From: Planctomycetota bacterium
GTDB taxonomy: Bacteria; Planctomycetota; Planctomycetia; Gemmatales; Gemmataceae
Assembly (NCBI GenBank): GCA_016872605.1
Contig: VGZI01000003.1
Span: 45,329-109,328 of the forward strand
DNA length: 64,000 bases
Direction of reading: 5' to 3'
A program made the translations under genes and the position numbers. Below, piece by piece: positions 1,101 to 55,292 of this stretch (position 1 is the stretch's first letter; each line of letters begins with the position of its first letter). Below the pieces are notes generated by a model. That model made no database searches. It was not told the DNA's origin and was given only the letters and a program-made list of their open reading frames with translations.

Positions 1101-1257
1101 GGTGCACGACATGGTCTGCGTGGCCTGCTTCAGGGAGGGCGAGGCTCCTGCCGAGCCGGAAGCGACAGGATACTCGTCCGAAATCGAGTATTTCGCGGGC
1201 TCGCGGCTCGGCAGGAGCCTCGCCCTCCCGTGCCGTTTGCAAACCATCTCGTGCACC
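1101..1257. repeat. 157-bp dispersed palindromic element, copy 1
   Basis: Termini ggtgcacgacatggt / accatctcgtgcacc; internal perfect 25-bp inverted repeat gggagggcgaggctcctgccgagcc at 1133-1157 and 1205-1229; near-identical copy at 14119-14274. Confidence 0.9.
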
Positions 1258-3057: not shown

Positions 3058-3181
3058 TCCACGAAGGGCCACGAAGAAACACGAAGTAGTGTTCTTGAAG
3101 GTCGATGTCAAAAAACGAGGGGGGCTGGTCGCAACGTTGCAACCAACTCCCCCGTCGTGTTTCTTGGTGCCCCTTCGTGGA
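3058..3181. repeat. Nested palindromic element between convergent genes
   Basis: Outer arms 3058-3084 and 3155-3181 match 25/27 as inverted repeat (tccacgaagggccacgaagaaacacga); inner G-rich/C-rich pair (gggggctggt... / ...accaactccccc). Confidence 0.75.
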
Positions 3182-11820: not shown

Positions 11821-11953
11821 AGCCGCGGAGCGGCGTAAGCCAGTAGCCAGGCTCGCAAGACCCTGGACCTGGCCGATCACGACACAAGCCGCGCAGCGGC
11901 GAAAGCCTTCCCAGGATCTCACGACCCTGGCTATTGGTTTCCGTCGCTCCGCG
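11821..11953. repeat. Pair of direct repeat units between convergent genes
   Basis: agccgcggagcggcgtaagccagtagccaggctcgcaagaccctgg (11821-11866) and agccgcgcagcggcgaaagccttcccaggatctcacgaccctgg (11887-11930). Confidence 0.6.
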
Positions 11954-11982
11954 ACTCTACCATGGTGCGCTGTCGAACGAAT

Positions 11983-14118: not shown

Positions 14119-14274
14119 GGTGCACGACATGGTCTGCGTGGCCTGGTGCGGGAGGGCGAGGCTCCTGCCGAGCCGGAAGCGACGGGATACTCGTCCGAAA
14201 TCGAGTATTTCGCGGGCTCGCGGCTCGGCAGGAGCCTCGCCCTCCCGTGCCGTTTGCAAACCATGTCGTGCACC
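14119..14274. repeat. 156-bp dispersed palindromic element, copy 2
   Basis: Termini ggtgcacgacatggt / accatgtcgtgcacc; perfect 25-bp arms 14150-14174 and 14222-14246 identical to copy 1. Confidence 0.9.
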
Positions 14275-16807: not shown

Positions 16808-17827
16808 ATGGGCAACCGTTTGCTCATCGGCGCGGTCGTTCTCGCATTCGGCATGATAGCGTCGCGTGGATCGGCCGATCCGCCGAGCGACGGACCGTCC
16901 AACCGTGGCGTCCTGCTGCCGCCACAGGCGTTTGATGACACCGCCAAGCGGCCCAACTCGGAACGCGAACGGCACGGCGAGTGGTCCATCAACGGCGGGG
17001 TGTATCTCGTCACTCCGGTTTTCGGGACCAATCCCGCCTTCCTTGTAACCAGTGGGCAGGGCAATGTCTCGCGCCAGGTTGATTTCGATCAACATCTGCA
17101 GGTCGCGCCGTTTCTCGCGCTCGGCTATGTCAGCGAGCGCGGCTGGGGGCTGCGCGGCCGATGTTTTCAGTACGATCACGGCAACTCCATCGACCATGTC
17201 GCGGCGCCTGGCGAGACCGTCACCGGGATCTCCGCGTTCGCTCCGGGTCGTGCGGCGACGGCGGGCACAATTCTCGCTTCCAGCAATCTTGCCGTCAACG
17301 TGCTCGACATCGAAGCGACGTGCAGCATCGACTCGGCCAAGTGGTCACACCTTTTGGGCATCGGTGTGCGCTACGCTCATATGAGCCAGGACTATCGGGC
17401 CACGGTTTTCAACACCAAGACGTTCATCGATCTGACAAGCGGGCACAATCTGAACGGCGTCGGGCCGGCGTTTTCACTCGAGACCAAACGGCGCGTCGGG
17501 GAGTCGGGGTTTGCCATCTACGGTCAGCTTCACGGCGCCGTCCTGTTCGGTCGCGCCAAGGAGATGCAGGCCGCTGTGATCAATGGACTCCCGATGGAGT
17601 TCTCACGTCGTCATACCGATGTGCTACCGGTCGGTGAGCTTGAAGCGGGTCTTGAGTATGAGCGAAATGTCGGACGCGTAAAGGTGTTCGGACAGGCGGG
17701 ATTTCAAGGGCAGGCCTGGTGGGGCGGCGGCAACGCCAGCAACCTCGATCCGGTCGGGTTCTCGTCGGCGGCCAACAACAATTTCGGTTTCGTTGGCGCC
17801 GCCCTGCGCGTCGGCGTGCGCTACTAA
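16808..17827 (+). CDS. BBP7-like outer-membrane beta-barrel protein
   Basis: Signal peptide; LGIGVRYAHMSQDYRA; FGFVGAALRVGVRY C-terminal strand. Confidence 0.7.
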   Translation: MGNRLLIGAVVLAFGMIASRGSADPPSDGPSNRGVLLPPQAFDDTAKRPNSERERHGEWSINGGVYLVTPVFGTNPAFLVTSGQGNVSRQVDFDQHLQVAPFLALGYVSERGWGLRGRCFQYDHGNSIDHVAAPGETVTGISAFAPGRAATAGTILASSNLAVNVLDIEATCSIDSAKWSHLLGIGVRYAHMSQDYRATVFNTKTFIDLTSGHNLNGVGPAFSLETKRRVGESGFAIYGQLHGAVLFGRAKEMQAAVINGLPMEFSRRHTDVLPVGELEAGLEYERNVGRVKVFGQAGFQGQAWWGGGNASNLDPVGFSSAANNNFGFVGAALRVGVRY

Positions 17828-17831
17828 CCGC

Positions 17832-17879
17832 GCTTGCGTTTAGCGTTCGCACGGGGCCATGCGAACGCTAAACGCAAGC
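17832..17879. terminator. Bidirectional terminator-like hairpin
   Basis: gcttgcgtttagcgttcgc-acggggccat-gcgaacgctaaacgcaagc, perfect 19-bp arms between convergent genes. Confidence 0.7.
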
Positions 17880-17885
17880 TGTGAA

Positions 17886-18533
17886 CTACTTCAATTCCTT
17901 AAATCGAATATTGCGGAACACGACCTCCATGGCCGGACCGCCGTGGATTTGAAACGCGATGATTCCTTCGTCGGGAAGTTCCTTGCGGTTCTTGCCTTCG
18001 GACGCCCACTTCTTGTCGAACTCTTGATCGACGGTGGTTTCGCCGTTGAGCTTGATGGTGACGTGTTTGCCGATGCATTTGATGTAGTAATCGTTGAATT
18101 CGCCTTCCTTGAGGACCTTTTTGACGAGCTTGCCGTCGGCCGCCTTCATCATGCCGCCGAAGTTTTCACCGTAGAGGCTGCCCCAGTAAGGTCCACCCAT
18201 GTCGCATTGCGGGCCGGTGACGGCGAACTTGTCCTTGTTATGGATATGGCTGCGAATCTGGATGCCGCTGTTGCCCGACTTCGTTAGCCGAACCTCGAAC
18301 TGCAACTCAAAGTCCTTGTATTTTTTCTTGCTGCACAGAAAGGTGTTGTAGTTGATTCCCTTGGGCGCGGTTGAACCGACGATGGCGCTTTCCTTGACCG
18401 ACCAGAATTGGTCGAGCAAGCCTTCGAAGCCGGCCAGATCTTTGCCGTTGAAGAACGGCTTATCGTCGCCGGCGTGGGCGGATGAAACCGTGAGCATTGC
18501 GCCAATCGCAAGAGTCCAGACTGAATTCTTCAT
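17886..18533 (-). CDS. DUF1080 (3-keto-disaccharide hydrolase) domain protein, secreted
   Basis: MKNSVWTLAIGAMLTVSSAHA leader; FFNGKDLAGFEG; FELQFEVRLTKSGNSGIQIRS; FRNIRFKELK. Confidence 0.88.
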   Translation of the reverse strand: MKNSVWTLAIGAMLTVSSAHAGDDKPFFNGKDLAGFEGLLDQFWSVKESAIVGSTAPKGINYNTFLCSKKKYKDFELQFEVRLTKSGNSGIQIRSHIHNKDKFAVTGPQCDMGGPYWGSLYGENFGGMMKAADGKLVKKVLKEGEFNDYYIKCIGKHVTIKLNGETTVDQEFDKKWASEGKNRKELPDEGIIAFQIHGGPAMEVVFRNIRFKELK

Positions 18534-21830: not shown

Positions 21831-22442
21831 TCAGATAACTTTCCAGCGCTCTAGGGCATCTTTGACCTGGGGCAATATTTTTTCCGGACCGGAGTCATTG
21901 AAAATCACGGCGTCGGCGCGAGCTTTCTTTTCGTTAAGAGACATCTGTGAGGACTCACGCCGGGCCAGCTCCGCGTCGTCCCAGCCGCGTTTTTCCTTGA
22001 GGCGTTCGAGCCGAACGTCGCGCGGCGCGTCGACGAATACGATCTTGTCGCAGCGCCGATGCCAGCCGGCTTCCAACATGATGGCAGCGTCGAGCACGAC
22101 AAATCGCGTCCCCCTTCGCGATTGTGCCTGGTCGATCTCCGCCCCGATGCGTTCTTCGATAAAGGGAAACACGAGCGCTTCCAGCGCAGCCAGTTCCTCA
22201 TGATTGGAGAATACGATCCGTGCAATCGTGCGACGATCGGGAAATCCCTGATCATTGAGGATGCGAGGGCCCCAGCGTTCGACGAGCTTGGCACGAATGT
22301 CCGGCTGTCGCAAGGCGTCGTGCCCGAATGCGTCAGCGGAAACGAGATGGCCGCCGAGCGATTGCATGGTCTGGGCGACCAGGCTCTTACCGCTGCCGAT
22401 GCCTCCGATGATGCCGATGACGGGGAGCATGACTAACGCCAA
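21831..22442 (-). CDS. coaE: Dephospho-CoA kinase
   Basis: VIGIIGGIGSGKSLVAQTMQSLGGHLVSADAFGHDALRQP; start may be 22424. Confidence 0.93.
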   Translation of the reverse strand: MALVMLPVIGIIGGIGSGKSLVAQTMQSLGGHLVSADAFGHDALRQPDIRAKLVERWGPRILNDQGFPDRRTIARIVFSNHEELAALEALVFPFIEERIGAEIDQAQSRRGTRFVVLDAAIMLEAGWHRRCDKIVFVDAPRDVRLERLKEKRGWDDAELARRESSQMSLNEKKARADAVIFNDSGPEKILPQVKDALERWKVI

Positions 22443-22795
22443 TGGTTGAGGACGATGAATTGGTCCGTGATCGGCACGTTGGCCGCGAGCAGGTTTCGAA
22501 TGGCCCTTGCCACCCGCGCGGGCGGCATGTCGCGATTGGGATCGTTGTCCCGACAGACGACGAGAATTCCAACGTGGTGCCCGCCTAGATCGATCACGAG
22601 CCGATGCAAGTCCAGAAAATCGTCGTGATTGCCAGTGAGTATCGCGCGATTGTCCAATGTCGCATGTCGGGGGTGGACGGGATCGTCCTCCCCCGAAAGT
22701 CCAACGTCTGCTGGAATTTGAACGTCGTGCCCCTCATTTCGCAACAGGCGCGTCAACAGGGCCGACACACTATCGTCATCCAGACAGAGCCTCAT
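22433..22795 (-). CDS. DUF5615 PIN-like toxin
   Basis: MRLCLDDDSVSALLTRLLRNEGHDVQIPADVGLSG; RAILTGNHDDFLDLHRL. Confidence 0.75.
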   Translation of the reverse strand: MRLCLDDDSVSALLTRLLRNEGHDVQIPADVGLSGEDDPVHPRHATLDNRAILTGNHDDFLDLHRLVIDLGGHHVGILVVCRDNDPNRDMPPARVARAIRNLLAANVPITDQFIVLNHWR

Positions 22796-23130
22796 GCGCG
22801 ATGCATCCGTTTGATCTGCGCGATCTCCTGCGGCGACAGCCGACCGTTAGGACTCGCAGCGACGGCGTCCATCAAGGCCTTCTGCCGCGCGTAGTCGGCC
22901 AACAACTCCGGCGGATTTGACTGGCAATACTCGATCGATTCCAGCACCGCCTCTACGGGCACATTGTAGTCGAGGGCAGCTTCTTCCGGCGTCATCGGCT
23001 CGGAGTTAAAGCACAGCCCGTACAGGGTTCGAGCTCGAATGCGCGTGCCTCGGACGCAAAGCTGTTTGTACGACGAGGGCTTCGGGTCGGGAGCCAGATA
23101 TTTCCAGACTTTCGGCGGATTTGTGCTCAT
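22792..23130 (-). CDS. DUF433 antitoxin-like protein
   Basis: CVRGTRIRARTLYGL; MTPEEAALDYNVPVEAVLESIEYCQSN; overlaps the downstream toxin start by 4 nt. Confidence 0.75.
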   Translation of the reverse strand: MSTNPPKVWKYLAPDPKPSSYKQLCVRGTRIRARTLYGLCFNSEPMTPEEAALDYNVPVEAVLESIEYCQSNPPELLADYARQKALMDAVAASPNGRLSPQEIAQIKRMHRA

Positions 23131-23716: not shown

Positions 23717-26578
23717 CTAATCCCTCACCTCGGCCGTATCATGCCAATTCGGACCAACGCTCATGTCCACGCGCAACGGCACATCGAGCTTCCCCGACAG
23801 CGCACGCGTCATCTCCTCGTGCACCAAGCGAAGTGCCGTCGCCTTTTCCTCCGGCGGGAACTCGAACACCAGCTCGTCATGAATCTGCAGCAACATCCGC
23901 GTGCGACATCTCTCGCGCTCGAGTCGTCGATGAATGTTAAGCATCGCCACCTTGATCAGGTCGGCAGCCGAGCCCTGAATCTGCATGTTGATCGCTTCGC
24001 GCTCGGGCTGATTGCGATTCTTGAACGTCGTGCTGGCGCGAACGCCTTCGATACGACGGCGTCGGCCGAGGATCGTTGCGACGTAGCCGTTGTCCCGGCA
24101 CGATGCCAAGAGCGACTGCTGGTAGTCTTGCACGCGCGGATACTTCGTGAAATAGGCATCGATGAATGCGGCGCCGTCCGCGTTCGTCAAGCCTAGACGA
24201 TTGGCCAGCCCTCCCGCGCTGATGCCGTAGATGACGCCGAAGTTGACCGTCTTGGCCGTGCGGCGCATGGCTTCGGTGACGTGGTGAAGTTCGACGCCGA
24301 AGATTTGCGCCGCGACGAGGGCATGGATATCACGGTCGTCGGCGAACGCTTGCTGCAATGCCTTGTCGCCGCTGAAGTGAGCGAGCAGACGTAATTCGAT
24401 CTGCGAGTAGTCGGCGGCGAGGAGGAGCCAATCCTTTTCGGGAAGAAACGCCCGGCGGATGTTGCCCCCCATCTCGGAGCGAATCGGAATGTTCTGCAGA
24501 TTCGGATCGCTGGAGCTGAGTCGGCCGGTCGATGCCACGGTTTGGTTGAACGACGCGTGGATACGGCCCGTGCGCGCGTTGACGAGAGCGGGCAGTGCGT
24601 CGACGTAGGTCCCCTTGAGCTTGGCGATCTTGCGGTGCTCGAGCAGCTTGCGCGGGAACTCGACGTGCGGATGGTCCTGACGGGCGAGCAATTCCAGCGT
24701 TTCCTGGTCGGTGCTGGCGTCGCCGCCGATGTTCGTTTTCTTGAGCGACTTAAAGCCCAGGTGTGTGAAGAGGACTTCACGCAACTGCTGGACCGAGTTG
24801 ATATTGAACTCGCGCCCCGCCGCGGCATAGATTTCGCGTTCCAGCGTCGCCAGCGATTTCTCCATCTCGGCGCTCATCAATTGCAGGAACGGGACATCGA
24901 GGCGAACGCCGGTGAACTCCATTTGACCGAGCACTTCGATAAGCGGAATTTCCAGGTCGTCATACAAGCACAAGTCAGAGCCTGAAGCGTCAGCGAAGAG
25001 GACCCGTACCTTCGCTGACGCTTCAGGCTCTGTTCGCTTCAATCCCAACGCCGCCAGTTCCGGTTCGAGCTTCTCACACAAGCGCCAGGCGACGTCGGCG
25101 TCCTCGCCGGCGTATTCAGCGACGCGGGCCGTCGGTACCTGGTCCATGCGCAGCTGGTTCTTGCCTTTGCCAATGAGTTCAGTGATCGAGATATTGCGGT
25201 GCTTGAGATGATCCATCGCCAGGGCATCGAGGTTGTGGTTGCGCGTGCCGGCGTGCAGGAGGTAATCGGCGACCATGGAATCGCCGACGACGCCCGCCAT
25301 GCGAATGCCTTGGGCCAGCAGCACCTGCCAATCGTACTTGATATTCTGATTGATCTTGCCGACGGCCGGGTCTTCGAGGATCACCTTGAGTTGCGCAAGC
25401 GCAGCCCGTTCGTCGAGCACCGCTTCGCCAGCCGGACCGCGCACGGCCAGATACCACGCTTCGCCGGGCTGCCAACAGATGGCGATGCCGACAATCTCGG
25501 CAAGATGCGGTTCGAGCGACGTCGTCTCGAGATCGACGGCGAACCGCTTCTGCTGCTTGAGCCGGGCCAGAAAGGTCTTGAACTCGGCCGCACGATTAAC
25601 GAGGTGATACGTGTGCGGCCAATCGCCGCCCGTGCTTGTCGCCGCGGCTGCTTCTTCGCCGCCGAAAAGCGAGCCTTGCACGACTTGGCTTTTTGTTTCC
25701 TCCGATGTCGTCGCGATCGTGCCGCGAACCTGCTCGGCGAATCCGCGAAAACCCCACTCGCGAAAATGCTGCAAGAGCGCCTGTCCATCCCAAGCTTGCA
25801 CGCGCCATGCGTCCCAAGTCAGCGGCAGCGAGACGTTCGCGTTCAGCGTCACGAGCTTTCGGCTGCGCTCCAGGTCTGGCAGAAATGCTTGTAGGTTCTC
25901 CTTCTTCTTGCCCTTCAGGTCGCCGATATGGGCGATAAGGTTCTCGATCGTGCCATAGTCTTGCAGATATTTACTCGCCGTTTTGGGACCGACGCCTTCC
26001 ACGCCGGGGACATTGTCGACCGAATCGCCGACGAGCGTTTGATAGTCAACGACCTGGTCGGGTCGTATTCCCCAGTCGGTTTGCAGCGCGGCGGCGTCGA
26101 AGTCGGCAAGCTTGCGAAGATTGAAGATCTTGACCTTGTCGCTCAACAGTTGCCGACAGTCCTTATCGCTGGAGCAAATGAAGACGTGCAATCCGCGCAG
26201 GGCGCCGGCCTTGGCGAGCGTGGCGATCAGGTCATCCGCTTCGTAGCCCGCGAGTCCAAGCACCGGAATGCGCATCGCGTGCAGCATTGTCTGAATCAGG
26301 GGAATCTGCAACTGCAAGTCGTCCGGCATCGGGGCGCGCTGGGCCTTGTACTCCGCATACAGCTTGTCGCGAAACGTCGGACCCGGCTCGTCGAAGCAGC
26401 AAATGAGATACGTCGGCTTGCGCTGGTTGCGAAGGTACAGCATGTCCTTCGTGAAGCCGAAGAGCGCATTGGTCGGCAACCCCGACGGACTTGTCATTTG
26501 CGGAATCGCGTGAAACACCTGAAAAATCAGCGAAAAAGCATCGACCAGATACAGGGTTTCCGCGGCAGGATCGGCCAT
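23717..26578 (-). CDS. polA: DNA polymerase I, carrying an in-frame palindromic insertion
   Basis: YLVDAFSLIFQVFHAI; GVEGVGPKTASKYL; 3'-5' exo FAVDLETTSLEP; LLAADYSQIELRLLAHFSGD; RRTAKTVNFGVIYGISAGGLANRLG; LLQIHDELVFEFP. Confidence 0.97.
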   Translation of the reverse strand: MADPAAETLYLVDAFSLIFQVFHAIPQMTSPSGLPTNALFGFTKDMLYLRNQRKPTYLICCFDEPGPTFRDKLYAEYKAQRAPMPDDLQLQIPLIQTMLHAMRIPVLGLAGYEADDLIATLAKAGALRGLHVFICSSDKDCRQLLSDKVKIFNLRKLADFDAAALQTDWGIRPDQVVDYQTLVGDSVDNVPGVEGVGPKTASKYLQDYGTIENLIAHIGDLKGKKKENLQAFLPDLERSRKLVTLNANVSLPLTWDAWRVQAWDGQALLQHFREWGFRGFAEQVRGTIATTSEETKSQVVQGSLFGGEEAAAATSTGGDWPHTYHLVNRAAEFKTFLARLKQQKRFAVDLETTSLEPHLAEIVGIAICWQPGEAWYLAVRGPAGEAVLDERAALAQLKVILEDPAVGKINQNIKYDWQVLLAQGIRMAGVVGDSMVADYLLHAGTRNHNLDALAMDHLKHRNISITELIGKGKNQLRMDQVPTARVAEYAGEDADVAWRLCEKLEPELAALGLKRTEPEASAKVRVLFADASGSDLCLYDDLEIPLIEVLGQMEFTGVRLDVPFLQLMSAEMEKSLATLEREIYAAAGREFNINSVQQLREVLFTHLGFKSLKKTNIGGDASTDQETLELLARQDHPHVEFPRKLLEHRKIAKLKGTYVDALPALVNARTGRIHASFNQTVASTGRLSSSDPNLQNIPIRSEMGGNIRRAFLPEKDWLLLAADYSQIELRLLAHFSGDKALQQAFADDRDIHALVAAQIFGVELHHVTEAMRRTAKTVNFGVIYGISAGGLANRLGLTNADGAAFIDAYFTKYPRVQDYQQSLLASCRDNGYVATILGRRRRIEGVRASTTFKNRNQPEREAINMQIQGSAADLIKVAMLNIHRRLERERCRTRMLLQIHDELVFEFPPEEKATALRLVHEEMTRALSGKLDVPLRVDMSVGPNWHDTAEVRD
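24976..25032. repeat. Palindromic element inside polA
   Basis: Perfect 23-bp arms cagagcctgaagcgtcagcgaag (24976-24998) and cttcgctgacgcttcaggctctg (25010-25032). Confidence 0.9.
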
Positions 26579-26682: not shown

Positions 26683-26739
26683 GTGGGGCACGTTTTCAAC
26701 GTGCCGTTCGCGTCTTGGCACGTTGAAAATGTGCGCCAC
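26683..26739. repeat. Hairpin repeat gtggggcacgttttcaacgtgcc / ggcacgttgaaaatgtgcgccac
   Basis: 23-bp arms at 26683-26705 and 26717-26739, two mismatches; same family as 14662-14686. Confidence 0.75.
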
Positions 26740-53731: not shown

Positions 53732-53736
53732 ACGCT

Positions 53737-53793
53737 CAGAGCCTGAAGCGTAAGCGAAGGAACGGTCGTCCTTCGCTTACGCCTCAGGCTCTG
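53737..53793. repeat. Intergenic copy of the palindromic family found inside polA
   Basis: cagagcctgaagcgtaagcgaagga (53737-53761) / tccttcgcttacgcctcaggctctg (53769-53793), one mismatch in 25. Confidence 0.88.
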
Positions 53794-53804
53794 ATGGAGA
53801 ATCG

Positions 53805-55130: not shown

Positions 55131-55212
55131 TGAAATACCTCCCGCGATAGGATCATCGACGGTCATTGTAGCCGGCCGCCATTGACCTGCGATGGTTTTT
55201 CGGGGAACTGTC

Positions 55213-55244
55213 GGCGAGCCGAGCCCCGTCAGGGGCGGGTTGAA
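55213..55244. repeat. GGCGAGCC repeat, copy 2
   Basis: ggcgagccgagccccgtcaggggcgggttgaa. Confidence 0.55.
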
Positions 55245-55259
55245 TCGGCGTCGCGCATT

Positions 55260-55292
55260 ATCAACCGGCCGTTTACGCGGCTTGGCTCGCCG
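55260..55292. repeat. GGCGAGCC repeat, copy 3, inverted relative to copy 2
   Basis: atcaaccggccgtttacgcggcttggctcgccg. Confidence 0.55.

Follow-up and report, generated by a model that had tools for sequence, protein, structure and literature searches.

Background

In-frame REPs have already been reported within ORFs, including those of DNA polymerase I and tRNA synthetases, and two Xanthomonas species carry different REPs at about the same site of recB (Di Nocera et al. 2013, PMC3733652). Rickettsia palindromic elements (RPEs) are the other known case: as described in the sections on them in a R. japonica study (PMC3767692, citing Ogata et al.), they lie in frame and solvent-exposed in housekeeping enzymes, and orthologues can have different RPE groups at one site. 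There, RPEs at the same site are taken to go back to a single ancient insertion, hotspots being left as a possibility. As regards the enzymes, the available part of Quentin et al. 2018 (PMC6006769) places the class-3 TnpA-REP group principally in Planctomycetes, Acidobacteria and Proteobacteria. Our search for literature on coding palindromes in Gemmata or on in-frame tRNA synthetase inserts found none beyond the REP and RPE papers.

Here we consider a hairpin inside polA in a stretch of 64,000 nt of Gemmataceae DNA (hereafter the window), and the family to which it belongs (family A). Family A shares with REPINs and with GTAG- and CGTC-tagged REPs (Bertels and Rainey 2011; PMC3733652) the dispersed short palindromes, the inverted pairing, the association with RAYTs and the in-frame position of some copies. 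It differs in having neither tag, since it starts with TCAGAGCC, and in that about five unrelated families occupy the PolA site and the pattern recurs in LeuRS, AlaRS and PurL. In-frame, exposed insertion in housekeeping enzymes is shared with RPEs, and family A behaves like an RPE; the phylum is different, and the sequences appear to be so too, family A having no CGTC tag at its ends. CGTC-tagged REPs, including RPE-4 and RPE-6, have no associated transposase, whereas family A flanks a RAYT in sister genomes. What is new, to judge by the sequences, is that in Gemmataceae clearly unrelated families have apparently used one and the same site in succession, and this in four proteins. Also new are the connection with class-3-like RAYTs and the signal of stop avoidance.

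Results

The hairpin in polA

The polA gene (23717-26578, minus strand) encodes 953 aa, and its 5'-3' exonuclease, 3'-5' exonuclease and polymerase domains are all complete (Pfam). A sequence-only reading of the window had described a 57-bp hairpin with perfect 23-bp arms inside this ORF, and we find it exactly so at 24976-25032: the arms (24976-24998 and 25010-25032, 23 nt each) are 100% complementary and enclose an 11-nt loop. The translation given there is also exact. Folded as single-stranded DNA, the hairpin reaches -31 kcal/mol, whereas dinucleotide shuffles reach -11.2 +/- 2.3 (z = -8.6; 0/200 shuffles equal it), and a single family-A arm folds weakly (-5.7 kcal/mol, 5 pairs). An Rfam search of the hairpin gave matches far below threshold only, mostly microRNA precursors, as expected for any long hairpin.

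The Pfam match to the 3'-5' exonuclease stops at residue 508 and that to the polymerase starts at residue 565; the insert occupies approximately residues 516-535, at the domain junction where it had been placed. Against E. coli Klenow structures it falls in an alignment gap between ..WPDLQKHK and LNVFENIEMPL, which is the same junction. In an AlphaFold2 model computed with 16 PolA sequences (mean pLDDT 83.7), residues 519-534 score below 50 and are flanked by confident helices (483-510 and 538-556); the insert is thus modelled as a disordered interdomain loop, which answers the structural check proposed with the original reading.

The stretch missing from PolA of most genera is indeed the 66 bp, or 22 codons, that had been claimed (24968-25033, minus strand). 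The size probably does not hold for the element itself. The last three insert codons read DLC, and relatives show ..DLY, ..DMY or ..GMY ahead of LYDD; these 9 bp (24968-24976) probably predate the insertion as linker, which would leave about 57-60 bp (19-20 codons) for the mobile part.

Family A in the genome and its relatives

With at most two mismatches, the pattern CAGAGCCTGAAGCGTNAGCGAAGG is matched by 256 half-sites in the genome (6.7 Mb) and its reversed control by none, so that the proposal of a dispersed palindrome family was right. In the majority of genomic copies, flanking T/A lengthen the consensus to TCAGAGCC...GGCTCTGA. The sister element that had been noted in an intergenic gap of the window is present at 53736-53794, between two convergent genes; its 26-nt arms have one mismatch. 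A slightly shorter pattern gives 71 to 189 half-sites in each of the same-genus genomes G001, G002, G004 and G006, 3 in G003 and 2 in G005; it also finds some in a few other genera of Gemmataceae, and 0 in 38 genomes outside the family. The window's genome (G000) is a 372-contig draft, and the relatives are drafts and metagenome-assembled genomes (MAGs).

A census of contigs C1-C39 and the window (2.25 Mb, one third of the genome; genes from a home-made gene caller) yielded 99 family-A loci, 49 of them full inverted pairs with a usual offset of 27-35 nt between half-site starts. Of these loci, 72 lie between genes, 16 touch the end of a gene and only 11 are within genes, although 83% of the sequence is coding. 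The family is thus strongly depleted from genes, which would be expected if most in-gene insertions are lost. Family A thus shows two inverted REPs, a short spacer, a long hairpin and many dispersed copies, by which a REPIN is recognized; in PolA, LeuRS, PurL and LarE the insertion is in frame and leaves a conserved protein unbroken, by which an RPE is recognized.

Reading frame

The frame used reads S-E-P-E-A-(S/L)-A-K ... A-S-G-S-D. It depends on a variable base of the first arm: A or G produces TAA or TGA, and C or T leaves the frame open. The base is C or T in 15/16 in-gene half-sites versus 39/108 intergenic ones (Fisher P = 1.2e-5, the two arms of an element not being independent), and it is C in the polA copy. 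All five full in-gene copies, and 10/11 in-gene loci, use this single frame; the intergenic copies more frequently have an alternative frame open than the used one (46 vs 29). Together, the stop-avoiding base and the single frame point to a filter at the level of the peptide and speak against the insert being bypassed or removed. Most likely, the in-gene copies are translated.

Association with RAYTs

Genes with the Y1_Tnp domain (PF01797) occur in 7/7 genomes of the genus, and many are flanked on both sides by a hairpin family of their own. Family-A hairpins bracket a RAYT gene in G002 (contig C198, hairpins at 17389-17448 and 17962-18028) and lie on both sides of one in G004 (contig C58); the two RAYT proteins are 77% identical. 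Over 21 related RAYT loci, the arms diverge in step with the RAYT sequences (Mantel r = 0.52, 0/5000 permutations; arms hand-picked from the RAYT-locus hairpins). In the window's own genome, family-A hairpins flanking a RAYT were not seen, and only a partial homologue of the cognate RAYT, with a stop, was found. Considering the bracketed genes of the sister genomes, we infer that a RAYT moved the polA copy.

The RAYT motifs THVH/NHVH, RWTQHGS and YVL..GQ match, by eye against the published table, the class-3 NHVH, W(T/A) and Y motif with Q. The family-A arm begins with CAGA, which is a CnGA foot, and has no GT(A/G)G; the foot varies in other related families. With the class-3 TnpA-REP group and its atypical REP-like hairpins, as far as the available part of its description goes (PMC6006769), our system shares the HUH, W and Y motifs of the RAYT, hairpins on both sides, the CnGA-type foot without GTAG, high copy number and occurrence in Planctomycetes. 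It differs in its in-protein copies, which that part does not report, and in the cognate RAYT, which is not intact in the window's genome in its draft form.

At both bracketed loci (L081 in G002:C198 and L087 in G004:C58) the RAYT frame extends at either end into the hairpin that flanks it, from which it draws its stop codon (..SEPEA*), so that the element supplies the end of the gene.

The PolA linker as a shared insertion site

Proteins of relatives were aligned and their DNA was checked for palindromes; L280 was excluded from the alignment (stop codon). The linker holds family A in G000 and a diverged family-A type at the same place in G001. Other palindromes are found in G006 (GGGAGGGCGAGGCTCCTGCCGAGCC.., family B), in G002 (134 bp, coding for SPLPLYSGGEGPGVRG...PHPQPLSPGVPGERG, family C), in G035 (GTAGTAGGCACACTCCGTGTGCC.., family D) and, a few residues upstream, in G022 (GGCGAGCGGGGAGTGTCAACC.., family E). 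In G003 and G005 the linker is short and not palindromic (RAGEESRERWF); in four other genera it is non-palindromic as well and of intermediate length, and in most other genera it has only 12-19 residues. The proposed alignment to PolA of relatives thus returns orthologues without the insert, with a short unrelated linker or with a different palindrome at that place.

In the polA ORFs of 29 genomes, six long inverted repeats lie in 2,016 nt of linker and none in the remaining 83,781 nt. Random placement would put all six events in the linker with a probability of about 2e-10, or of 7e-9 if G000 and G001 count as one. The six repeats are, as far as their sequences tell, about five unrelated families, hence mostly independent insertions. 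The supposition of a planctomycete in-protein palindrome family therefore needs amending: such palindromes are present, and they belong to many families, not to one.

Family B (CGGGAGGGCGAGGCTCCTGCCGAGCC) has two intergenic copies in the window (1133-1229 and 14149-14247), the same palindrome as in the G006 linker, and a family-B hairpin lies about 350 bp from the RAYT gene L078 in the window's genome.

Other proteins

Full or near-full family-A hairpins also occur in the genes for LeuRS, PurL, LarE and an ATPase-like protein of the window's genome (the last identity is our own reading), and AlaRS has a full or near-full family-C hairpin. MetH and FwdC contain hairpins of GTAG-tagged families, which, unlike family A, start with GTAG. 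The latter two inserts are single-species, with clean gaps in the same-genus orthologues compared; on inspection by eye, neither MetH nor FwdC shows an evident target-site duplication, the relatives compared being too divergent for certainty. A hairpin in a kinase-like gene (C39:12817), being without further copies, was dropped.

In LeuRS, the four relatives compared (G002, G003, G005 and G006) carry palindromic or repeat inserts that differ from one to the next; AlaRS has different palindromes in G001, G002 and G006, and the PurL of G002, like that of the pair G003/G005, contains other palindromes. On this sequence comparison, all three repeat the PolA pattern of unrelated palindromes at one site. 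The AlaRS insert of G002 (CCAGCCCCACGCGCAAGCGTGGGG) is a hairpin that flanks a RAYT in G002 itself. In alignments with solved structures, the LeuRS and AlaRS insertion sites are short turns. LarE has no insert in four relatives and a different one in G001.

LeuRS (C1:76092-79040), PurL (C30) and MetH (C8) of G000 also have second, shorter repeat-derived peptides at other loops, e.g., LPSPSGRGVGGEG, PPSPSGRGAGGEGG and RETRGEGREDRSSLTPRPSPL, so that there are several repeat insertions per protein.

Discussion

We consider it confirmed by comparison of sequences that in Gemmataceae an apparently mobile DNA hairpin resides in polA with the gene unbroken, and that a few flexible protein sites were evidently invaded repeatedly. 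We believe it very probable that the insert is a REPIN-like element of a RAYT-spread family that entered the PolA linker and survived in frame, and that tolerant loops are hit independently by unrelated families. The insert would consist of two inverted copies of an approximately 26-nt REP, TCAGAGCCTGAAGCGTNAGCGAAGGA, around a spacer of about 7-11 nt. A class-3-like RAYT, i.e., a single-tyrosine HUH enzyme acting on single-stranded-DNA hairpins, would amplify TCAGAGCC hairpins in this genus, and one copy would have been inserted into the codons of the exonuclease/polymerase linker. Most in-gene insertions would be lost, and the survivors would be those in frame, without a stop and in a flexible exposed loop. 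The polA copy may have survived because its length keeps the frame, its variable base C avoids the stop and its peptide, TEPEASAK...ADASGSD, would form a small, polar, disordered loop. With different families active at various times and in various species, their copies would accumulate at the same few permissive loops: the PolA linker, a turn of the LeuRS editing domain, an AlaRS turn and a PurL linker. We presume that the hotspot results from the loss of harmful insertions and not from targeting.

It could be supposed instead that the 22 residues are an ancestral PolA segment and that codon choice produced the palindrome by chance. The genus and its near relatives do have a somewhat longer linker (as in G003/G005), so the DLC part is probably older. 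The inserted DNA, however, is a copy of a family with hundreds of half-sites in the genome, and orthologues carry different palindromes or none at the linker; relatives with the same peptide in non-palindromic codons, named in the sequence-only reading as the decisive counter-evidence, were looked for among the PolA of relatives and not seen. An ancestral origin of the hairpin itself is refuted and would hold for the three DLC codons only; as an explanation of the whole insert it has practically no chance. We give equally negligible weight to an assembly or amplification artefact, namely inverted-repeat chimeras in MAGs: the genome is a draft of many contigs and the named relatives are MAGs, but in-frame palindromes occur at the same sites in assemblies of different projects, and the arms belong to genome-wide families and keep the frame and the stop-avoiding base.

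A very stable hairpin within a coding sequence also suggests translational bypass or RNA-level removal, in which the ribosome skips the hairpin or the mRNA loses it and PolA is made without the peptide. Hairpins feature in known bypass elements (byps of some yeast mitochondria, T4 gene 60). Skipped inserts, however, need neither a frame nor stop avoidance, and the in-gene copies show both (15/16 vs 39/108), which makes this explanation very improbable. A selected function, for instance a hairpin or loop at a domain boundary that slows the ribosome during domain folding or alters the enzyme, has in its favour the interdomain position of the PolA site and the fact that nearly every species of the genus compared has some insert in the LeuRS, AlaRS, PurL and PolA linkers; for REPs located in repair genes, Di Nocera et al. 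suggested speculatively that they change activity (PMC3733652). Nevertheless, the unrelated sequences and lengths and the insert-free orthologues fit tolerance, the MetH and FwdC inserts are single-species, and the elements are strongly depleted from genes overall, so we find such a function improbable. It is unlikely, in our estimate, that the palindromes in the PolA, LeuRS, AlaRS and PurL linkers are repeatedly replaced, one family by another, either because an existing hairpin is a target for the next element or because the hairpin or loop is selected, e.g., for co-translational folding.

Returning to a RAYT-spread element tolerated in a loop, the analogy with RPEs drawn from the sequence stands for behaviour (in frame, in an exposed loop, in housekeeping enzymes) and appears to fail for descent: the element is of the REP/REPIN type, and its hairpins flank a RAYT in sister species. 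Mobile palindromes would then rewrite essential proteins in planctomycetes too, beyond Rickettsia. This bears on the open RPE question, because unrelated palindromes share sites: same-site inserts can be independent hotspot hits and not relics of one insertion. The published reading of same-site RPEs is one ancient insertion, and the unrelated sequences at the Gemmataceae sites favour independent hits. Taken as a natural map, the sites may show which loops of PolA, LeuRS, AlaRS, PurL and MetH tolerate insertions, and would offer a measurable route from selfish DNA to protein sequence.

Other observations in the window

Near polA, two small adjacent ORFs of 120 and 112 aa (22433-23130, minus strand) resemble, by eye, a DUF5615 PIN-like / DUF433 toxin-antitoxin pair. 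Other families are represented by additional strong inverted repeats at 17832-17879, 3058-3181, 26683-26739, 11821-11956 and 55212-55292, some of them between convergent genes.
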